Source of the DNA: Sulfobacillus thermotolerans
Lineage (GTDB): Bacteria; Bacillota; Sulfobacillia; Sulfobacillales; Sulfobacillaceae
Length of the DNA: 64,000 nucleotides
Assembly: GCA_002951815.1 (NCBI GenBank)
Contig: CP019454.1
Coordinates: forward strand, 868,001-932,000
Direction: 5' to 3'
A program made the translations under genes and the position numbers. How positions within the stretch are numbered: the stretch's first letter is position 1; each line of letters starts with the position of its first letter. Of this stretch, positions 28,198 to 37,857 are shown piece after piece. The notes under the pieces were generated by a model. That model was not told the origin of the DNA, made no database searches, and saw only the letters and a program-made list of their open reading frames with translations.

Positions 28198-28369
28198 CAA
28201 GGATTTCACGTTCGCCTTTCCGCTCATCACGTGTGTACACATGAGCATTGGGCTACCACCTGCTTAACTCGATAGGTTTACATGAAATGAGTGGTTTTTA
28301 TGGCAACAATTGCCGACGGATGTCATAACGTACGGTGTAACGAAAAAAGCACGACGAGGAGGGCTGGAC

Positions 28370-29566
28370 ATGGCGTTATTTGACGAGACCTTTGCTCCAT
28401 ATGTCCCGTTTGGCAGTCGGGTCTTATCAGTGGGAGCTTTAGGGACTGATGTGGCTGTTTTGCAGGCCGTGTACAACGTGATGATACAAGCGATGAATCC
28501 CCCACAAGGTGCTCTAGGCGAGCCGATTGCGATAACAGGACGATTCGACGACATGACCGCTGTAGCGGTTGCCAACATTCAAGAATACTTTGGTTTGCGC
28601 GTGGACAATGTGGTGGGACCCCAGACATATTGGGCTTATGGACAAGGTGTCGGTCCGTATACTCCCTATGGGGGACCCGCTTATGGCAGTCGCGAACTAA
28701 AGGATGGAATGTGTGGCGGTGATGTGATGATTCTGCACAACCGCCTTAATTGTTTTCGCTATGCGTCCTTGATTGGAGGGGCTAGTGACACGTTTACGCC
28801 CCGCACGGTTGAGGCGGTGGCGGCTTTTAAGCTAGATGCCGAGAATAATGGGGATACGGGCTTTCCGCCAAACGGCATTGCCGGGTTTGGATTTTATGAT
28901 GCTTCGTGGCTCTATGCGGTGGCCGGGGGCCGTTCGCTTAGTCTCGGACGCAAGGGATTTGATGTGGTTTTTGTGCAAGTGCTACTGCAGAACTTGGGTT
29001 TTTATGGCGGCCGAATTACTGGATATTTTAACGACGAGATGGTGGTGGCGACCAAACACTTTCAAGAAGCTGTTCATATTGCAGCCGATGGTATCATTGG
29101 CCCTGTAACGTATTTTCACATCGGCAAAAACAATGCGGTTGCGGCGCCGAGTCCGTTATCGATAGCGTGGCCGCCTGCCCTGAAGCCGCAAGTGAGTGTT
29201 TGCAGTGCGCCGTTGATGACCGTAACCTCCGATTTGCATCCCTATGGCAGTGCATCGTTGGTGATTAATGAGTTAGAGGGTTTCGAAAGTTTGGATGTGG
29301 TAGCAAATTTTGTACCGGCCCCGCAAACTTTTGGTAAGAGATTTCAACGATATTTTTTTACGTTAACAAACCCGGTTACAGGAAATCTTGTGGTCACAAC
29401 TCCCATGTTTCTTACTTCCGCAAAGGAGCCTCCTCAGGATTGGGCGGGGAGTTACTCGCCAGGAGTCTCTACCATTCCTTTGGGGGTCGTAACGGTTCGG
29501 GCCGGCACAGTTGATGGAGTTTTGGGGCCAGCCGTCTTGAGCGCAAACCTTCATGATTGCCATTAA
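28370..29566 (+). CDS. Protein with three peptidoglycan-binding (PGRP-fold) repeats
   Basis: The 398-residue protein contains three PG_binding_1-like repeats: about residues 18-75 (LSVGALGTDVAVLQ ... VVGPQTYWAYG), 100-160 (LKDGMCGGDVMILHNRL) and 183-240 (LSLGRKGFDVVFVQVLLQNL ... GIIGPVTYFHIG). The remaining ~150 residues are a beta-rich domain that I cannot place. The start at 28370 has GAGGAGGG 7 bp upstream and gives no signal peptide, which is unusual for a wall-binding protein; a spore-coat or cortex role or a non-classical export route is possible. It is monocistronic with a good terminator. Confidence 0.7.
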   Translation: MALFDETFAPYVPFGSRVLSVGALGTDVAVLQAVYNVMIQAMNPPQGALGEPIAITGRFDDMTAVAVANIQEYFGLRVDNVVGPQTYWAYGQGVGPYTPYGGPAYGSRELKDGMCGGDVMILHNRLNCFRYASLIGGASDTFTPRTVEAVAAFKLDAENNGDTGFPPNGIAGFGFYDASWLYAVAGGRSLSLGRKGFDVVFVQVLLQNLGFYGGRITGYFNDEMVVATKHFQEAVHIAADGIIGPVTYFHIGKNNAVAAPSPLSIAWPPALKPQVSVCSAPLMTVTSDLHPYGSASLVINELEGFESLDVVANFVPAPQTFGKRFQRYFFTLTNPVTGNLVVTTPMFLTSAKEPPQDWAGSYSPGVSTIPLGVVTVRAGTVDGVLGPAVLSANLHDCH

Positions 29567-29944
29567 TCACGGAAAAAAGAGGGCGTAACGCCCTCTTTTT
29601 TTATTATCCTTAACAGCTCATCTGGATTGGAATACAAAGCTTTCAGCGCGCGGGCATTATAACTTGACCTAAAGCTTATCTCTGTATTGCGAGAAATGAA
29701 CAGTCTCTGCAATATTTGAGGGATCCATTCGCATATAAACGTGTTACAATTTGCTAGTACTGTTGAGTAGTTATTAAACAGGCAATAAAGGCTAGGTATT
29801 ACCAGTCATCTTAGTGAAGCAAAGATTTTTGTTAACTGTTGCTGACTCGAACAATTAAAGTTTTATAACCTCAGCAACGGTTGTTAAGTTGCGAAATACA
29901 TGGGTCTCGCCGAAGTATTGAGATCCTGTGAAGGAGGTAAAGGT
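29567..29944. other. Leader/promoter region of the oxidase operon with a 12-bp inverted repeat
   Basis: After the terminator of the previous gene, this region holds no plausible ORF. It carries AACTGTTGCTGA (29834-29845) and TCAGCAACGGTT (29871-29882), complementary at 11 of 12 positions (the twelfth a G-T pair in RNA), around a 25-bp A+T-rich centre with TTTTATAA. This could be an operator around a -10 or a leader hairpin. AAGGAGG (29931-29937) is the RBS of the cupredoxin gene. Confidence 0.5.
29573..29602 (+). terminator. Terminator of the peptidoglycan-binding-repeat gene
   Basis: GAGGGCG and CGCCCTC flank a 3-nt loop, extended by A/T pairs and followed by a run of T. Confidence 0.92.
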
Positions 29945-30598
29945 GTGGAATACGAGTCTCCCAAAGATGAGAAAACCCCGAATACTGAGAACAGTGAAGA
30001 AAATCAATGGAGCCGGCGGCAATTTCTCGTGGGCACGGCGGCGATTGGCGTGGCCGGCGCGGTGACGTTGTTTGGGCGCCAGAGCCTCGTAAATGCGGCG
30101 CGGAGCGTATTTGGGTCGCCGGTGAGTTCGGGGACCGTGCATTTGTATGCCTATGACTACTACTACATTCCGAATTACATGACCTGGCGGGTGGGCGACC
30201 GCATGGAAGTCATCTTCCAAAACCAAAGCCATACCCACTGGCATGAATGGACCATGGGCCGCCATGTCAATGAGGCCTATTTTCAAGCGTTTGGCAATCT
30301 ACCGGCCGATGCGTGGCAAGAAGACTTCTGGGATGGGGTGCCGGTGACGTTAAGTGATCCCTACGGCATCGACAACTTTGTGCCCAATCAAGCGATTGTG
30401 ACCTATGTGGGGCCCAAAGCGGCGTACAACATTCAATCGGGGGGCGATTTTAGCCCGACGTTGAAGCCCGGGGGCAGCCTGCATTTGTCGTTTACGGTGC
30501 CGAACAAGCCCGGATTGTGGGATTTCGGCTGTTTTGTGCAGCAATACATTCACTACCGCACCGGGATGCGGGGCCAAGTGATGATCCTGCCGGCCTAA
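29945..30598 (+). CDS. Tat-exported, membrane-anchored cupredoxin of the oxidase operon
   Basis: This 217-residue protein starts at GTG 29945 (AAGGAGG 7 bp upstream). A twin-arginine signal (SRRQFLVG, Arg24-Arg25) and a hydrophobic stretch (28-43) direct it to the outer face. The mature part is cupredoxin-like: SHTHWHEW (96-101) offers copper-binding His, and the C-terminal Cys196, His203 and Met208 form a type 1 copper motif (CFVQQYIHYRTGM) whose Cys-His gap is six residues rather than the usual two to four. It heads the operon with CuA oxidase subunits, so delivery of electrons to that oxidase is likely. A role in iron or sulfur respiration is inference. An additional oxidase subunit is the alternative. 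Confidence 0.72.
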   Translation: MEYESPKDEKTPNTENSEENQWSRRQFLVGTAAIGVAGAVTLFGRQSLVNAARSVFGSPVSSGTVHLYAYDYYYIPNYMTWRVGDRMEVIFQNQSHTHWHEWTMGRHVNEAYFQAFGNLPADAWQEDFWDGVPVTLSDPYGIDNFVPNQAIVTYVGPKAAYNIQSGGDFSPTLKPGGSLHLSFTVPNKPGLWDFGCFVQQYIHYRTGMRGQVMILPA

Positions 30599-30628
30599 GC
30601 GCGGCGAGGGAAAGGAGGAAGTGCCCGC

Positions 30629-31441
30629 ATGGGAGAAAATGTCGTCTTTGCGGTGCTGTGGGTTGTCTTCAGCGTGCTGGGGGAGATCGGCGACCGCGTG
30701 ATCATTCGGCACAATCCGATGTACTACATTGTGTCCAACCAAGGGCAGTTGGCGCTGCAAGCGTTTAACTTTCTGTTGGTGGTGCTGACCCCGGTATTTG
30801 TGTTTGTGGTGCTCTTTTTGGTCTTTACGATGGTCCGGTTTACCACCAAGCGGGGCGAAATGCCGCCGGCCAATAAGCGCTTTGCGATTGACAACAAAGC
30901 GTTCGTCTTGGTCTGGGTGGGCGGCTCGATTGCGTTAAATCTGCTATTTTTCCTGCATCCGACGACGTCGGCGATGGAGCAGATGTTTGCCTTGGATCAA
31001 CCCGCCGCGAATACCCACGACCTCGTCGTGGATGTGACGGCGCGGCAATGGCAATGGATTTTCAGCTATCCGCAGTATGGGCTCACCCAAACGCTGACGC
31101 CCAACGGCCAAAATTTGCTGGAGTTGCCCGTGAATGTGCCCGTGAAGTTCGTGTTGCGGTCGTATGACCCGTATCACACCTATGACCAATATGCGGATGT
31201 GATTCACAGCTTTTGGGTGCCGGCCTTTGGGATTAAAGAAGATGTGATTCCAGGCGAAACCCGCTATGAGTACCTGACGCCGACCGCGATTACGTCGTAT
31301 GCCGTGAATCCGATGGTGCGCGTGCAGTGCGCCGAAGTGTGCGGCCCGGGCCACCCGTGGATGGAATCGCCGTTAGCGGTGGTGTCGGATCAGCAATTTG
31401 CGCAGTGGGTGAAAGCCCAGAAAGCCTTAGCCAACGGCTAA
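30629..31441 (+). CDS. ctaC: Cytochrome c oxidase subunit II with CuA site
   Basis: The 270-residue subunit has hydrophobic segments at about 5-20, 46-68 and 92-110 and a C-terminal cupredoxin domain. The binuclear CuA centre is complete: His193 (DVIHSFWVP), then CAEVCGPGHPWM with Cys234, Glu236, Cys238, His242 and Met245. This indicates a cytochrome c or copper-protein oxidase rather than a quinol oxidase. The aromatic motif QWQWIF (electron entry) is present. It lies 30 bp after the cupredoxin gene with an AAAGGAGG ribosome binding site. An extra N-terminal helix compared with typical two-helix subunits is possible. Confidence 0.92.
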   Translation: MGENVVFAVLWVVFSVLGEIGDRVIIRHNPMYYIVSNQGQLALQAFNFLLVVLTPVFVFVVLFLVFTMVRFTTKRGEMPPANKRFAIDNKAFVLVWVGGSIALNLLFFLHPTTSAMEQMFALDQPAANTHDLVVDVTARQWQWIFSYPQYGLTQTLTPNGQNLLELPVNVPVKFVLRSYDPYHTYDQYADVIHSFWVPAFGIKEDVIPGETRYEYLTPTAITSYAVNPMVRVQCAEVCGPGHPWMESPLAVVSDQQFAQWVKAQKALANG

Positions 31442-31488
31442 GGGTCCCCCGCCGAGGCGCTCGGTGGGATAACGAAGGAGGGAACATT

Positions 31489-33438
31489 GTGGCACATGCT
31501 ATGACCGTGCCGGAATCCGGGCACGCGCCGCGACCGCGGAAGGCCCCCATGCCCCCCGTCTTGCGGGCGTTTTTGTGGGCGGCGATTGGGTTTTTGTTGC
31601 TGAACACCTTTGTGATTGCCGTGGATCCATTTCGTGGCCACCCCTTTGTGACGGGGCCGTCGGTGGTGTTCGGCTGGGTCGGTGCGGCGATCGGGTGGCT
31701 GTTGGGCATTGGGCTGTATGATGCGGTCTTATTGCCGTTAATGGGCTTTCCCACGCGCTGGCAGGAGCGGCAGCAGGGCTGGCGCCGGTACTGGGAATTT
31801 GCGACCGACCATAAAGTGATTGGCTTGCAGTACATGATGTTTGCCGTCGGCGGGTTTCTAATCGCCGGAGGCATTGCGATGCTGATGCGCTATGAGTTGA
31901 TGACCCCGTATTTGACGATTTTCCACTACCCGTCCAACTACCTGACGGCGGTGGGCATCCACGGGACGTTGATGATGTTCTCCTTCGCAACGGTGTTTAT
32001 GATCGGCGGCTTGGGAAACTACTTTGTGCCGTTGATGATCGGGGCGCGCGAAACCGTCTTATCGAAACTCTCCGGGATTGGCGTGTGGTTGGTGCCGGTG
32101 GGGATTTTGACGGTGTTGTTCAGCCCCTTGCTGGGGGAATGGTCCACCGGCTGGCGGGGGTATGAGCCGCTGGCGGGGCAAGATGCGAACGGGATTTTGT
32201 TCTACTATCTGGGCGTGCTGGCGCTGACCATGTCCTCGCTGATTGTGGCGTTGAACTTGGTCGCGACGGTGATGTTCCGGCGGGCGCCGGGGCTGACGTG
32301 GGGACGGTTGCCGCTGTTTGTGTGGGGGCAAGTGACCGTCAACCTGCTGATGTTGATTTGGTTTCCGGAAATCCAGACCACCTTTGTGATGGCCTTGCTG
32401 GATAAAGTGGTGCCGTTGAACTTTTTCACGGCGACGGGCAGTCCGCTCACGTACCTGATGTTGTTCTGGCTGTTTGGCCATCCGGAAGTGTACATTATCG
32501 CCGTGCCGGCGTTTGCCATCTGGAACGAAATTATTCCGGTCATGGCGCAGAAATCGCTGTTTGGGCGGCAATGGGCCGTGATTGGCTTGGTGTTCGTGAT
32601 GATGTTGTCGGGCTTGGTGTGGGCGCATCACATGTTTACCAACCTGCGGAACAGTGAGATTCTGCCGTTCTCGTTCTTTACGGAAATGATTTCAATTCCC
32701 ACGGGCTTTGCCTACATGTCGGCAATTGGAACGCTGTGGAAATCGAAAGTGCGGCTCAATACCCCGATGCTGTGGATTTTGATGAGTATGTTTAACTTCC
32801 TGATTGGGGGGTTAACGGGGGTGTTTTTGGCCGACCCGATCGTGAACTTGCAGCTGCACGACACGTTCTGGGTGGTGGGGCACTTCCACTACACGATTAT
32901 CGGGTCGATGGTGTTTAGCGGCTTTGGGGCGATCTACTACTGGTTGCCGAAACTGTCGGGGCGGACGTTTAACGAGACGTGGGGGAAGACCTTGGCCATT
33001 ATCACGTTCTTAGCGTTCAACCTGACCTTTAGCCAGTTTTTCCTGCTGGGCTTGCACGGGATGAACCGGTGGGTGCCGGCGTACCCCGCGTATCTGCAGC
33101 CGATGAACTTCGAGGTTTCGATCTTCGCGTTTATCTTGGGCGCGGCGTTCTTGGGCAATATTTTGTACATTGGCTACTGCTGGCGGAACGGCGCGCAGGC
33201 GGGGGAGAACCCGTGGGGCGCGAAGACGCCGGAATGGTTTACGAGTTCGCCGGCGCCGCGGTATAACTTCCCGGTCCAACCGGAAATTGTGGGGAGCTTG
33301 TATCTGTATGGCGAGGGCACCAAAGTGCCGGTGGTGACGACGGCGCTCGGGGAACTGGCGGCGACCAGTCGAGCGACGCAGGATCCGCAGTTTGACTGGC
33401 ACGATTACGCGCCCGACGGAGGAGGGGTCACGTCATGA
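31489..33438 (+). CDS. ctaD: Cytochrome c oxidase subunit I (A-type heme-copper oxidase) with N-terminal extension
   Basis: From GTG 31489 (GAAGGAGGG 6 bp upstream) this is a 649-residue subunit. About 100 residues with two hydrophobic spans (25-45 and 58-83) precede the canonical core that begins YWEFATDHKVIG. Heme and copper ligands are in place: His158 (HGTLMMF), His331 and Tyr335 with Glu333 (GHPEVY), His380/His381, and His465/His467 (GHFHY). Positions for proton uptake differ from model A1 enzymes: the D-channel Asp is Glu188 (GARET) and the K-channel Lys appears as Ala408 (IPTGFAY). It reduces O2 in the membrane, and its stop overlaps ctaE in ATGA. Confidence 0.92.
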   Translation: MAHAMTVPESGHAPRPRKAPMPPVLRAFLWAAIGFLLLNTFVIAVDPFRGHPFVTGPSVVFGWVGAAIGWLLGIGLYDAVLLPLMGFPTRWQERQQGWRRYWEFATDHKVIGLQYMMFAVGGFLIAGGIAMLMRYELMTPYLTIFHYPSNYLTAVGIHGTLMMFSFATVFMIGGLGNYFVPLMIGARETVLSKLSGIGVWLVPVGILTVLFSPLLGEWSTGWRGYEPLAGQDANGILFYYLGVLALTMSSLIVALNLVATVMFRRAPGLTWGRLPLFVWGQVTVNLLMLIWFPEIQTTFVMALLDKVVPLNFFTATGSPLTYLMLFWLFGHPEVYIIAVPAFAIWNEIIPVMAQKSLFGRQWAVIGLVFVMMLSGLVWAHHMFTNLRNSEILPFSFFTEMISIPTGFAYMSAIGTLWKSKVRLNTPMLWILMSMFNFLIGGLTGVFLADPIVNLQLHDTFWVVGHFHYTIIGSMVFSGFGAIYYWLPKLSGRTFNETWGKTLAIITFLAFNLTFSQFFLLGLHGMNRWVPAYPAYLQPMNFEVSIFAFILGAAFLGNILYIGYCWRNGAQAGENPWGAKTPEWFTSSPAPRYNFPVQPEIVGSLYLYGEGTKVPVVTTALGELAATSRATQDPQFDWHDYAPDGGGVTS

Positions 33439-34004
33439 CGAATGCACCGGAACAGCGCCGCAGTGCGGCGCTGACCCCGGCGAACTACCGGGCGGTCCGC
33501 TTTAGCATGTTGTTTTTCATCGCGACGCAAATCGTGCCCTTTGTGGTGCTGTTTGAAGCGAAGTATCTGTACGACGGATCCTATGTTTCACCCCAAGCCG
33601 ACCAAGGCTTTGGCGTGGCGGGGGCGGTGCTGATGGCGCTGAGCGCGTGGGTCGCGTGGCAAGCGCTGCGGGCCCGCACGGGGCCGGACGCCCGCGAGCG
33701 GGTGGCCACCCGCTTGAAAGTCGCCGCGGGGCTTGGCTTGCTGGCGATGTTGACGGTGATTTACCAGTGGGGCCTGCGGTATGCGTCGCCGCAAGGACGC
33801 TTTGGGGAAATGTATTACGTGATTTCGGGCGCGGACATGGTCTACGCGGTGGTCGGGCTGATTATGGTGGGCATCGCCATCTTACGCAACGCCCGCCAAG
33901 ACATGGCTCCGGAACGGTTTTGGACGGCGGAAGCCAGCGTGTACTTTTGGGTCTATGTGGCGTTGGCGTGGATTGCGAGCTGGGTGGTCGTGTTTTTACT
34001 GTAA
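33435..34004 (+). CDS. ctaE: Cytochrome c oxidase subunit III
   Basis: A 189-residue subunit with five predicted helices. The first span near FSMLFFIATQIVPFVVLFEAKY and the last near YFWVYVALAWIASWVVVFLL fit the short subunit III form. It supports the stability of the oxidase core; it has no redox centres. The ATG overlaps the ctaD stop by 4 bp, so translation is coupled. G+C content and codon choice match ctaC and ctaD. Confidence 0.8.
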   Translation: MTNAPEQRRSAALTPANYRAVRFSMLFFIATQIVPFVVLFEAKYLYDGSYVSPQADQGFGVAGAVLMALSAWVAWQALRARTGPDARERVATRLKVAAGLGLLAMLTVIYQWGLRYASPQGRFGEMYYVISGADMVYAVVGLIMVGIAILRNARQDMAPERFWTAEASVYFWVYVALAWIASWVVVFLL

Positions 34005-34037
34005 GCGCCAAGACGCGAGAAATGGAGGCCTGAGGAT

Positions 34038-34271
34038 ATGAGCGGAGGATTTTGGCCAACCTTACCTTTGAAGATTCCCTATAGTGAAGGGGTGCCGCAT
34101 TGGTGGGACCCGGCGTGGTGGATCTTTCAGATTGTGGTCATGACGATATTGTTGTTGACGCTCCGGCGCGTGGCGCTCAGTGTCGACAAAAGCGACAAGG
34201 CGGCGAAGACGTCCGCCAGTGGGCGTCGGCCGGGCGCGAGTTCGGACCAGCCCCCGTCGATTCCGGGTTGA
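34038..34271 (+). CDS. Small single-span subunit of the oxidase operon
   Basis: A 77-residue protein with one hydrophobic segment (about residues 26-44, WWIFQIVVMTILLLTLRRV) and a basic, Pro/Ser-rich tail. It follows ctaE by 33 bp with GGAGGCC upstream and shares the operon's base composition, suggesting a subunit IV-like accessory. Sequence similarity to a named family is not evident. A hairpin just after it probably ends the transcript. Confidence 0.6.
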   Translation: MSGGFWPTLPLKIPYSEGVPHWWDPAWWIFQIVVMTILLLTLRRVALSVDKSDKAAKTSASGRRPGASSDQPPSIPG

Positions 34272-34348: not shown

Positions 34349-34414
34349 TAGTTCGATAGTATTACTAATTGAGTGCCCAATTTTGGGCACAAGCTACAAA
34401 TGGAGGTCGCGCTA

Positions 34415-35314
34415 ATGTACGCCCAGTCGGTATCTGTCCCGCGGAGCTTCTCGTCTGTCTTGATGGACTACGTGACGCTCATGAAACCACGAATTATTTC
34501 TTTATTGGTCGTGACCGCCTATTGCGCCATGGTTGTCGGGGCAGGCCGCCTGCCTTCTATTGGACTGACGCTGTTGACGCTGGGAGGTCTTACGTTGTCG
34601 AGCGGTGGAGCTCACGCTGTCAATATGTGGTACGATCGTGATATTGATAAGGTGATGCGCCGCACGAAAATGCGTCCTGTAGCACAAGGTCGAATCCCTG
34701 GTTCGCATTCCTTGGCATTTGGCATCATATTGCAAGCGATATCCTTTGTCGGATTGGGCCTATGGGTCAATTGGACTACGGCGTTGTGTTCATTAGGCGG
34801 GTTTTTATTCTATGTTTTCATTTATACAATGTGGTTAAAGCGACGGACGCCTCAAAATATTGTTATCGGTGGTGCAGCAGGAGCCTTTCCGCCTTTGGTG
34901 GGGTGGGCTGCTGTCACGGGTACAATTGGTTGGCCCGCTATTTTGATGTTTTTAATAATCTTTTTATGGACGCCACCACACTTTTGGGCACTGGCCTTAT
35001 ATAAGCAGGATGATTACCGTAAAGCCGCTATTCCCATGATGCCCGTAGTTCGCGGTGAGCACGTGACAAAAGTGCAAAGCATGGTGTATACATGGTTGCT
35101 CTTAGCTGCTTCAGTGGCCCTATATTTTACGGGTACGGTGACATGGGTATACTTGGCAATTGCTGTAGCACTTGGAGTTACCTTTATTGGCTATCATGTT
35201 TTTTTGCTCCGGGAGCATGAGCCTGATACAATATGGGCCAAGCGGACCTTTAAATTTTCTTTGCTGTACATGATGGCGATTTTCTTTGCCATGGTTGTTG
35301 CGATTCCGCACTAA
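34415..35314 (+). CDS. ctaB: Protoheme IX farnesyltransferase (heme O synthase)
   Basis: The 299-residue polytopic UbiA-family prenyltransferase adds farnesyl to heme B to make heme O, needed for aa3-type oxidases. The Asp-rich substrate motif NMWYDRDIDKVMRRTKMRP and the second loop MWLKRRTPQN are visible, and MKPRIISLLVVTAY forms the first helix. The start at 34415 has GGAGGT 8 bp upstream. It has its own promoter and terminator but lies next to the oxidase genes; ctaA (heme A synthase) is not in the window. Its composition is like the chromosome average rather than the oxidase genes. Confidence 0.93.
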   Translation: MYAQSVSVPRSFSSVLMDYVTLMKPRIISLLVVTAYCAMVVGAGRLPSIGLTLLTLGGLTLSSGGAHAVNMWYDRDIDKVMRRTKMRPVAQGRIPGSHSLAFGIILQAISFVGLGLWVNWTTALCSLGGFLFYVFIYTMWLKRRTPQNIVIGGAAGAFPPLVGWAAVTGTIGWPAILMFLIIFLWTPPHFWALALYKQDDYRKAAIPMMPVVRGEHVTKVQSMVYTWLLLAASVALYFTGTVTWVYLAIAVALGVTFIGYHVFLLREHEPDTIWAKRTFKFSLLYMMAIFFAMVVAIPH

Positions 35315-35331
35315 CTGCAATGGAAACAGTC

Positions 35332-35362
35332 AACAGGCCACGTGCCCGTGGCCTGTTTTTGA
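35332..35362 (+). terminator. Terminator of ctaB
   Basis: AACAGGCCACG pairs with CGTGGCCTGTT around a TGCC loop, with the arm running into TTTTT. Confidence 0.92.
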
Positions 35363-35456
35363 TGTACTGGTAGTGATAGTAAAATTTGAAAGTGGGAAAA
35401 CTGTTGTTGCCGGGGTATAGTGGGACAGGAGACAAGCAAGGGAGGGAGGATCTGGG

Positions 35457-36785
35457 GTGAAACCGAATTACAAAGTCTTGACGGTGTATCTACTTGGTGT
35501 GTTTATCGGCGCTTTGGATACAAACGTATTAGGCCCGGTCTTTCCTGTGATTGCACGGAGCTTTCATGTGACGCTCGAAGGCGCTGCATGGACAGTGACG
35601 GCCTACACGGTTGCTTATATTGGCTCGACGGTTATGGCGGGCGCACTGGGTGACCGATTGGGACACCGCAAGGTGTTTATTTGGGGAGTGAGTTTGTTTG
35701 CCCTGGCCTCGCTGACGGCGGCCTTAAGCCGGGTGTTTACCTTATTTGTCATCGCGCGAATTGTGCAAGGAGCGGGTGCCGGAGCGGTCTATCCTAACGG
35801 ACAGGCCGAGGGCTTAAAACAGTTTCCACCCGAAAAGCATGGAATGGCGTTAGGGATGTTTGGAGCGGTTTTTGGATTGGCTAGTATTATTGGTCCAACG
35901 CTTGGCGGTGTCTTGGGTCAGTATTTTGGATGGCCTGCCGTGTTTATTATTAACTTGCCGATTGCTTTAATTGTCTTGGCCATGTTGCGGAAAGCACCGC
36001 CATCGGAAATTGTGACGCGCCCTTTGCCCGATTGGGTTGGTGGGTCAAGTTTCAGCGCCGGTCTGGCGAGCGTGCTGTTGGTATTGATGGGCCAAGGGAC
36101 TGTCCGTCTTGTGTTTTTGGTATTGGCGGTCTTTTTCTTTGGGATTATGGCATGGCGGCAAAAAGTGGCTCGGACGCCGTTTTTGGATACAACACCGTTG
36201 GCCAATAAGGCTGGCATTGCGGTAATGGTCGGAGCGGGCCTTATTGGTTTAGACATGTCTGCGGCGATCTTTGTTCCTGCTTTAGTGCAGGCCGACTTGC
36301 ATTACTCGGTACTGGAGTCGGGGCTCGCGCTCTTGCCAGCTGCCTTTACAGGGGCCCTGCTGGCAGGGGCAGGGGGTGTGATGGTGGATCGCGTGGGAGC
36401 TAAACGTATTCTTGCCGTCGGACTAGCAGCAGCGGCTATTGGAGGCGTTTTATTAGCATGGCCGCCGTTGACATTTTTACGATTTATTTTGGCTATGATA
36501 GCACTGGGCATGGGGACCGCGTTCACTATGGGAGCTCCGCTAAATCGCTTGGCGTTGGATTTGTACCGATCAGAGCAAGCAGGCGAAGCGTTGTCCTTGA
36601 TGGCGGTATTTCGCGCCACAGGCCTCGCGGCAGGGCCTATCTTGCTTACCGCTGCTAAAGTCCTGCACGGATTTACCGGTATGTACGGAGCTGTTGCACT
36701 CGCCTCCGTGCTCGGGGTCTTTGTCTTTCTTGTGGTGCCTGAGAAGCCGCGGGGTATGGGCCCGGCGTTTATTCAGAAAACCTAA
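35457..36785 (+). CDS. MFS transporter (drug:proton antiporter-like)
   Basis: The 442-residue membrane protein has MFS motif A (GALGDRLGHRKVF), an antiporter motif C (FGLASIIGPTLGGVLG) and about 12-14 helices, and resembles bacterial drug exporters. GTG 35457 has GGGAGG upstream. Its stop overlaps by 4 bp the stop of the convergent TlpA-like gene. No substrate can be inferred. Confidence 0.82.
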   Translation: MKPNYKVLTVYLLGVFIGALDTNVLGPVFPVIARSFHVTLEGAAWTVTAYTVAYIGSTVMAGALGDRLGHRKVFIWGVSLFALASLTAALSRVFTLFVIARIVQGAGAGAVYPNGQAEGLKQFPPEKHGMALGMFGAVFGLASIIGPTLGGVLGQYFGWPAVFIINLPIALIVLAMLRKAPPSEIVTRPLPDWVGGSSFSAGLASVLLVLMGQGTVRLVFLVLAVFFFGIMAWRQKVARTPFLDTTPLANKAGIAVMVGAGLIGLDMSAAIFVPALVQADLHYSVLESGLALLPAAFTGALLAGAGGVMVDRVGAKRILAVGLAAAAIGGVLLAWPPLTFLRFILAMIALGMGTAFTMGAPLNRLALDLYRSEQAGEALSLMAVFRATGLAAGPILLTAAKVLHGFTGMYGAVALASVLGVFVFLVVPEKPRGMGPAFIQKT

Positions 36786-37369
36786 GGTGTCCCAAAGGCC
36801 GCTTCAATCGTGCTAGCAGGCGTTGTACCTTGAAATGAGCGCGTAATTTGTCCGTGCTGATTTAAAAGGAAAATGGCGGGAATCATTTCCGCTTTTTTAG
36901 CAAAGGGAGTGGCGTCGGTCGGGTCGATTGTGAACGCCGAGAGAGGAAGATGATAGATGGCCGCATATTCCTGCAAGGTGTGGTCAAGGGCTTTTATTCC
37001 CGACCGACTAGCTCCATAAAATGGCCCCGTCCCATCATGCCCAGCGGCGGCGTTATTGGCCGGGCCGGCCACTCCAATCCCTCCCCGGGGTGAAATATCG
37101 ACGAGAGTTATGCGGATATGGTGCGCCTGACCCCAATGAAAGAGCTGGGGTTCTTGCCACTTAGCTTCCCATGCGCAGTATTTGCACCATGAGGCCATGG
37201 CGATGACAACGGCCCCGTTAGTATCTACGAAAGAAGTCTTCTGCCACTTATCTGCAGCGACGGACCACACTTTATATTTGGGTGGCGCCGCCTGGGGGGC
37301 CGTGCCACACCCTGAGAGCCCGATAACGGATAGGGAAATGAAAATACTAGCACGTAAACGTATGTGCAC
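36782..37369 (-). CDS. TlpA-like thioredoxin-fold lipoprotein
   Basis: A 195-residue protein with a signal sequence ending in the lipobox LSGC (Cys21 lipidated) and a thioredoxin active site WCKYC (Cys62, Cys65), with the cis-Pro segment MIPAIFLLN near the C-terminus. It probably acts outside the membrane as a thiol-disulfide protein, for example in cytochrome or CuA assembly, an inference supported only by proximity to the oxidase genes. GTG start with GAGGTG upstream. Between the active site and cis-Pro there is a Gly/Ala-rich insertion (about residues 95-115). Confidence 0.75.
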   Translation of the reverse strand: MHIRLRASIFISLSVIGLSGCGTAPQAAPPKYKVWSVAADKWQKTSFVDTNGAVVIAMASWCKYCAWEAKWQEPQLFHWGQAHHIRITLVDISPRGGIGVAGPANNAAAGHDGTGPFYGASRSGIKALDHTLQEYAAIYHLPLSAFTIDPTDATPFAKKAEMIPAIFLLNQHGQITRSFQGTTPASTIEAAFGTP

Positions 37370-37566
37370 AATGCTACACCTCGCGTGTTTTGTGGTTATT
37401 GTAGCATGCCCAGTTCGGTCGGACTAGTTTTCATGGCTAGGGGATAGCGGAAGAGTTTGTCTGCCAAATAATGGGGCATATTGATTCTATAAGAGATTTC
37501 TTTTATTATATAATTCATATCTGTTGTTAGCCTAACATTCAGACAACGGCAGTGGGAGTGGTACAA

Positions 37567-37857
37567 ATGGGCACGGTGGTATTGAGCGCTGTCGGGGTCG
37601 ACGTGGGTGATGCCTTGTGGATACTCATTCCGACAGCAATGTTTGTCAGTTTCGGATGGTGGATGCTTAAGTGGCTAGGTAATGGGCCAAAAGAATCAGC
37701 CTACGGCGATGAGTATCCGAAATGGTTGCAGCCGCCGTCTGAGGACAGACCCCGCACATTACCTCCCACATGGGCAGTAATTCGGGGAGGAAAGCGCAAT
37801 ACTGCCGTTACGGTACGTCCAAGGCGCAAGACCGAAAGCCACCATAGTTCTTCTTAA
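37567..37857 (+). CDS. Small single-span membrane protein of unknown function
   Basis: This 96-residue protein has one hydrophobic helix (about residues 15-36, WILIPTAMFVSFGWWMLKWL) and a basic C-terminus. The ATG at 37567 has GGGAGTG 6 bp upstream; in-frame GTG codons at 37552 and 37558 are less well placed. The function is unknown. A clear terminator follows. Confidence 0.55.
   Translation: MGTVVLSAVGVDVGDALWILIPTAMFVSFGWWMLKWLGNGPKESAYGDEYPKWLQPPSEDRPRTLPPTWAVIRGGKRNTAVTVRPRRKTESHHSSS

Follow-up and report, generated by a model that had tools for sequence, protein, structure and literature searches.

Replaced proton-channel residues in an AcoP-associated cytochrome oxidase of Sulfobacillus thermotolerans, a candidate for weak or absent proton pumping

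The K-channel Lys of subunit I and a Glu of subunit II are taught as being needed for the reductive half of the cytochrome oxidase cycle. A coxA gene of Sulfobacillus thermotolerans was predicted to lack this Lys, together with the Asp at the D-channel entrance, which raises the question of how the enzyme takes up protons and which electron donor it serves. The gene lies in the window, the stretch of 64,000 nucleotides analysed here (positions 868001–932000 of a single-contig genome of 3,317,203 bases). The operon on the plus strand is ordered cupredoxin, coxB, coxA, coxC, and ctaB. Its features are as follows, in window coordinates.

29900–30598, plus strand: cupredoxin of the AcoP type (sequence and predicted fold), predicted to be TAT-exported
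30629–31441, plus strand: coxB, subunit II; CuA motif present, K-channel mouth Glu absent
31489–33438, plus strand: coxA, cytochrome oxidase subunit I, 649 aa, GTG start
33435–34004, plus strand: coxC, short subunit III
34373–35314, plus strand: ctaB, haem o synthase
30008–34267, no strand assigned: repeated block, 99.95% over 4260 bases versus genome positions 3119868–3124127 (minus strand)

As subunit II carries the CuA motif, electrons are expected to come from a soluble or bound redox protein and not from quinol. The repeated block comprises most of the cupredoxin gene and coxBAC, its second copy (L041) differs by 2 mismatches, and it reflects a recent duplication or gene conversion. Two close copies are also present in other species of the genus. 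The genome has five COX1 genes: the window copy, an identical copy, paralogues at 75% and 63%, and one at 36%. The type of coxA described below occurs at four places in this genome, versus the three coxBAC clusters given for S. thermotolerans Kr1 in the published genome description (PMC6803676).

We examined the channel residues of the window CoxA by pairwise alignment to solved A-family oxidases, by multiple alignment and with a predicted model (mean pLDDT 88.8). A superposition of residues 98–594 of the model on the Rhodobacter sphaeroides oxidase, spanning 496 residues, gave Z 52.1 and rmsd 1.3. The positions discussed are listed below.

31555–31623, plus strand: first extra N-terminal helix, residues 23–45 (predicted model; hydropathy peak)
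31654–31740, plus strand: second extra N-terminal helix, residues 56–84 (predicted model; hydropathy)
32050–32052, plus strand: Glu188 at the D-channel Asp132 position, variable among relatives
32071–32073, plus strand: Ser195, aligned with Asn139; 43 of 44 Sulfobacillaceae-type proteins have Ser here
32368–32370, plus strand: Glu294, in 44 of 44 Sulfobacillaceae-type proteins and nowhere else in the set
32485–32493, plus strand: Glu333 and Tyr335, the retained D-channel Glu286 and cross-linked Tyr288
32683–32685, plus strand: Glu399, replacing a non-acidic residue in Lys-less relatives
32692–32694, plus strand: Ser402, accompanying Glu399
32710–32712, plus strand: Ala408 at the K-channel Lys362 position
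32833–32835, plus strand: Asp449, at the end of helix IX, occurring with Glu399

The names Ser299, Met353, Ala356, and Trp366 and the metal-ligand numbers of the model enzyme are R. sphaeroides numbers. For residues listed in Table 2 of PMC12901375, R. sphaeroides numbering follows that table.

The structural claims of the original prediction held throughout. Pairwise alignment placed Glu188 at the D-channel Asp (GARET against GAPDV) and Ala408 at the K-channel Lys (PTGFA against PTGIK), and the combined alignment and predicted-structure check found no Lys at the K-channel position and no Asp at the D-channel entrance. The metal ligands His158, 331, 380, 381, 465, and 467, together with Tyr335 and Glu333, were retained in the multiple alignment. 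Two additional N-terminal helices were present in the predicted model, with the normal first helix beginning at residue 108. Misalignment of the channel residues was ruled out, as the multiple alignment agreed with the pairwise one and positions 396–412 were ungapped in 190 of 190 rows. A one-off oddity or a sequencing error was ruled out as well, the replacements being common to 58 Sulfobacillaceae-type rows among the 216 aligned. That the proton-uptake routes differ from those of model enzymes, as had been proposed, is supported, and more strongly than had been claimed, as subunit II has lost its K-channel mouth Glu too and the changes are fixed branch-wide. Changes that the original prediction did not list are Ser195 for Asn139, Asn346 for Ser299, the loss of the subunit II mouth Glu, and the gain of Glu399, Ser402, and Asp449.

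We compared the protein with the feature list of A-family (A1) oxidases in the footnote to Table 2 of PMC3084760, in Paracoccus denitrificans numbers. The A1 fold and the haem, CuB, and Tyr-I ligands are present (PF00115, 372.7 bits; six His and Tyr335 retained). Among D-channel residues, Glu278, Asn113, and Asn199 correspond to Glu333, Asn177, and Asn256, whereas Asp124 and Asn131 are replaced by Glu188 and Ser195. What is probably the Ser193 region holds Ser249 and Ser250. Among K-channel residues, Thr351 and Tyr280 are kept as Thr405 and Tyr335, whereas Lys354 and Ser291 are replaced by Ala408 and Asn346. In R. sphaeroides numbers, the window CoxA thus shares the fold, metal ligands, Tyr288, Glu286, Asn121, Asn207, and Thr359 with the A1-type aa3 oxidases of Paracoccus, Rhodobacter, and mitochondria, but differs from them at Asp132, Asn139, Lys362, Ser299, and the subunit II mouth Glu. 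It scored 467.2 bits against the equivalog model TIGR02891 (CtaD_CoxA), under the curated cut-off of 670.75.

To place these replacements, we aligned 216 COX1 proteins and dropped 26 at 95% identity, leaving 190 rows; extracted pieces shorter than 400 aa (L114 and L195) had been excluded beforehand. In a set of 61 genomes, the relatives whose match began near the N-terminus formed a block at no less than 53% identity, followed by a drop to 40%. The 190 rows comprised 95 with the K-channel Lys and 95 without it. Glu399, on helix VIII nine residues ahead of the missing Lys, was found in 90 of the 95 Lys-less rows and in none of the Lys-bearing rows. Asp449 had the same distribution (90/95 versus 0/95), and Ser402 was found in 94 Lys-less and 5 Lys-bearing rows. 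All three residues were invariant in the 90 Glu399 rows, which include proteins from Chloroflexota, Actinomycetota, and Sulfobacillaceae genomes.

The loss extended to a second gene. A CuA-bearing subunit II could be paired with 158 of the 190 proteins, the other 32 having none within 4 kb. The K-channel mouth Glu, three residues before a conserved Trp, was present in 74 of 76 Lys-bearing systems versus 1 of 79 Glu399 systems, where 2 of the 76 and 1 of the 79 lacked the reference Trp and are unscored; the window coxB has Val at this position. Because the Lys of subunit I and the mouth Glu of subunit II, encoded by separate genes, are lost together, the K-channel is gone as a unit.

Two unrooted trees were built by a quick method with SH-aLRT support only: one of 141 of the 190 rows with six trait columns removed, and one of 76 rows, from which the near-copy L298 was omitted. 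In the 141-row tree, a single branch (SH-aLRT 98) set the Glu399 proteins off from all other rows, and the states Lys-bearing, Glu399, and other needed four changes in total. A single origin of the Glu399 state fits this tree. The counts of 90 of 95 therefore reflect repeated sampling of one event, along with smaller independent losses.

Two extra N-terminal helices define a 2TM COX1 clade of family A that includes iron oxidisers, and several K-channel losses and variants in this family are mentioned in the same paper (PMC8239418); both points are thus in print. The window CoxA resembles this clade, which that paper places at the base of the bacterial COX1 tree, in its predicted helices. The main text of the paper does not name Sulfobacillus, and no mention of Glu399, Asp449, or the subunit II Glu was found in it. 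In 89 of the 95 rows without the Lys and 28 of the 95 rows with it, at least 70 residues preceded the position of residue 98, so the extra length is not specific to the Glu399 branch.

The D-channel separated the sub-branch of the window protein from the rest of its branch. Asp132 and Asn139 were present in all 95 Lys-bearing rows. Among the 46 other Glu399 rows, 31 retained both residues, so neither Fe(II) nor uncoupling is bound up with K-channel loss alone. The remaining 15 had lost Asp132 and carried Glu at 139. These Chloroflexota and Actinomycetota relatives (L203–L207, L214, L236, L239, L241–L243, L245, L248, L252, and L253, with Arg, Lys, Asn, or Gly at 132) are a natural counterpart of a laboratory double mutant, with Asp132 lost and Glu at 139, that reportedly regained pumping. 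Asp was absent from position 132 in all 44 non-redundant Sulfobacillaceae-type proteins (Glu 18, Gly 8, Thr 6, Arg 5, Ser 4, Asn 2, and Lys 1), and position 139 was Ser in 43 and Gly in 1. Since position 188 is this variable, Glu188 is not a conserved substitute, and inspection of the clade-specific residue list found no conserved new acid near the D-channel mouth. The metal ligands, the branch-specific residues, Glu333, Asn177, and Asn256 were retained in 44 of 44.

We then examined the cupredoxin. It had no match to a cupredoxin family in Pfam, but matched AcoP of Acidithiobacillus ferrooxidans in sequence (E 8.7e-21), and AcoP ranked first in a Foldseek search with its predicted model (E 2.2e-14; pLDDT 73.4). 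His115, Cys211, His218, and Met223 were invariant in the five aligned proteins. The cupredoxin gene adjoined 49 of 54 Sulfobacillaceae-type cox loci; four of the other five (L049, L050, L054, and L055) run off a contig end, and L078 does not. Weaker matches were observed near L101, L104, L200, L229, and L230. Plasmid records gave no cupredoxin match and, in 932 records, no oxidase match at or above 60% identity.

A cupredoxin search of 369 gammaproteobacterial genomes gave a match in four, and the gene order was acoP-coxB-coxA-coxC-ctaB in all four. Their CoxA proteins all carried Glu399 and lacked the Lys, Asp132, and Asn139; Asn121 was lost in three. The subunit II mouth Glu was absent from L295, L297, and L298, and the subunit II of L296 was not readable in one frame. 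In the 76-row tree, three of the four joined the Sulfobacillaceae type with a support of 100. A rusticyanin-like gene, scoring under the curated cut-off, follows ctaB in L297 and L298 (E 1.5e-9 to rusticyanin for L298), and an upstream ORF with one haem motif in L296 presumably resembles Cyc2. No Glu399-type protein was present in the 29 best places read for residues in a draw of 398 Pseudomonadota genomes; as 4 of the 369 gammaproteobacterial genomes carry one, that draw had missed them.

We take the cup gene of the Acidithiobacillus rus operon to encode AcoP. This operon is ordered cyc2-cyc1-cup-coxBACD-rus (PMC10654088), with cup directly ahead of coxB-coxA-coxC, as the AcoP-type cupredoxin is in the window. 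Expression is raised by Fe(II) for this operon and by sulfur for the bo3 and bd quinol oxidases (PMC2754497). The four gammaproteobacterial acoP-cox operons, which hold relatives of the window CoxA, add to this likeness. In contrast to the rus operon, the scanned neighbours of the window operon (28310–29566 and 34373–37857) include no cyc2, cyc1, or rus; they encode a peptidoglycan-binding protein, CtaB, an MFS transporter, a thioredoxin-like protein, and one unassigned protein. The first of these, immediately 5′ of the operon at 28310–29566, is a 418-aa protein with peptidoglycan-binding repeats. The likeness to the A. ferrooxidans oxidase drawn here is one of cupredoxin and gene order.

Transcript data from S. 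thermosulfidooxidans bear on the electron donor. Without a strong iron oxidiser, four cox I/II pairs had more transcripts, one of them beside a sulfocyanin gene, and with such an organism present a four-subunit cluster had more transcripts (PMC6315122). Judging from cluster make-up, the pairs would belong to the Glu399 branch and the four-subunit cluster to the quinol type. By analogy with these transcripts, the window operon may be used with Fe(II).

We give about an even chance to the explanation that the operon of the window serves Fe(II) respiration in the manner of rus, and that its terminal oxidase pumps protons weakly or not at all. The AcoP-type cupredoxin and CuA subunit II would hand Fe(II)-derived electrons to haem a and then to haem a3-CuB. 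The N-side part of the K-channel is gone, through loss of the Lys and Ser of subunit I and the mouth Glu of subunit II, and a buried Glu399 has been gained along with Ser402 and Asp449; in the acoP-cox sub-branch, the D-channel mouth Asp and the Asn139 constriction have been replaced likewise. Protons for water formation would pass from the cytoplasm through the remaining D-channel body (Asn177, Ser249, Ser250, and Asn256) to Glu333, and Glu399 may help charge balance near haem a3. By helix direction, Glu399 sits closer to the level of the haem than the lost Lys did, and a role in charge balance is more likely than one at a channel mouth. An electron passing from Fe(II) to oxygen releases too little energy to cover a pumped proton, so weak or absent pumping would suit Fe(II) electrons. 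Fe(II)-oxidising acidophiles also maintain a large standing proton gradient.

Mutants of model enzymes offer a parallel. Replacement of Asn139 by Asp, Thr, or Ser abolishes pumping with O2 reduction kept, and Asn139Asp or Asn139Thr restores the step blocked by Lys362Met (PMC12901375). The window CoxA likewise combines loss of the Lys with a change at Asn139, but here the combination is natural, the two residues are Ala and Ser, and they are accompanied by Glu399, Asp449, and the loss of the subunit II Glu. This combination comes near that of a laboratory-built uncoupled enzyme, whose effect may carry over to the window enzyme. Glu188 of the window copy, still an acid, could serve at the D-channel mouth and would then argue against uncoupling.

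A fully pumping oxidase with re-routed inlets is a tenable though somewhat unlikely alternative. In such an enzyme, Glu399, Ser402, Asn346, and Asp449 would form a K-like route, and Glu188 or another surface group would feed the D-channel at normal stoichiometry. The strict conservation of Glu399, Ser402, and Asp449 (90/90) and of Glu333, Asn177, and Asn256 (44/44) speaks for this, as do the 15 of 46 other Glu399 rows with Glu139 and Asp132 lost, a pairing that reportedly restored pumping in a laboratory double mutant. The sub-branch itself, however, has Ser and not Glu at 139, its position 132 varies freely to include Gly, Thr, and Arg, and no new acid is conserved by the mouth. In cytochrome c nitric oxide reductase, protons for the chemistry come from outside (the P side), and glutamates of nitric oxide reductase or of the C-family channel were considered as possible equivalents of Glu399. 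P-side uptake for oxygen chemistry through Glu399, Asn436, and Asp449, and in Sulfobacillaceae also Glu294, would agree with the alteration of both inner mouths and with the branch-specific polar residues that helix direction places in the outer halves of helices V, VIII, and IX. Yet no charge would be separated in this way, to the detriment of growth on Fe(II), and the inner D-channel residues are kept in 31 of 46 other Glu399 rows; we regard it as highly improbable. A decaying, dispensable extra copy with drifting channels is the least credible reading: there are several copies per genome and position 188 is variable, but all 44 Sulfobacillaceae-type proteins keep the metal ligands and the branch-specific residues, the reading frames in this genome are open, and the cupredoxin accompanies 49 of 54 loci.

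The original prediction attributed the changes to the very large proton gradient faced by an acidophile, and this part is not supported for the K-channel. The Lys loss also occurs in the Chloroflexota and Actinomycetota draws. The quinol oxidase of the same genome (L044; QoxB, 931.7 bits, under the cut-off of 1015.5; subunit II without CuA cysteines) retains Asp132, Asn139, Glu286, and Lys362. As L044 is intact in the same membrane and pH gradient, the gradient does not force the change; what differs is the electron donor. Acid adaptation as the sole cause was thus rejected. Direct adaptation of the inlets to the gradient is very unlikely, even though the loss of Asp132 and Asn139 without Glu139 was confined to the Sulfobacillaceae-type and gammaproteobacterial acoP-cox proteins; because these mouth changes occur in just such operons, an explanation by the electron donor fits better. 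A bolder reading, in which a new A-family mechanism gave up both N-side inlets for an internal relay (Glu399, Ser402, Asn436, and Asp449), evolved once, spread among phyla with the acoP-cox operon, and is uncoupled in Fe(II)-respiring members, seems to us rather doubtful.

Glu399, Asp449, the co-loss in subunit II, and the fixed Asn139Ser replacement were not found in the main texts and passages searched, and we do not claim priority. These also yielded no proton-pumping measurement on the Glu399 branch. A whole branch without the K-channel Lys and the subunit II Glu, and with a matched new Glu, constitutes a set of natural mutants tested by evolution. Absence of pumping in its Fe(II)-type members would show that the oxidase matches the protons it spends to the energy that its electron donor supplies. 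Such tuning has been argued for acidophilic iron oxidisers; a measurement of it was not found in the literature searched. From its sequence, the window oxidase is a natural candidate for an enzyme that pumps few or no protons. Glu399 and Ser195 are open to single-residue tests, with the quinol oxidase of the same cell as a built-in control.

Five Lys-less rows lacked Glu399: L095, L096, L145, L192, and the distant L198. L095 and L096, from one genome (G056) of the same class as the window, have Leu at the K-channel Lys position and Lys at 399, form a separate tree branch, and in L095 the subunit II retains the mouth Glu; here the K-channel Lys seems to have moved nine residues. L145 (Candidatus Binataceae) and L192, from one genome, lie outside the Glu399 branch; in both, position 399 is Ile and the K-channel Thr is replaced by Phe. 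An independent oxidase line in four Pseudomonadota genomes (L258, L260, L267, and L270) has Gln for the K-channel Lys and Asn for Asp132, with the subunit II mouth Glu and Glu399 both absent. As this line lost the Lys and the subunit II Glu without gaining Glu399, Glu399 is not always needed.
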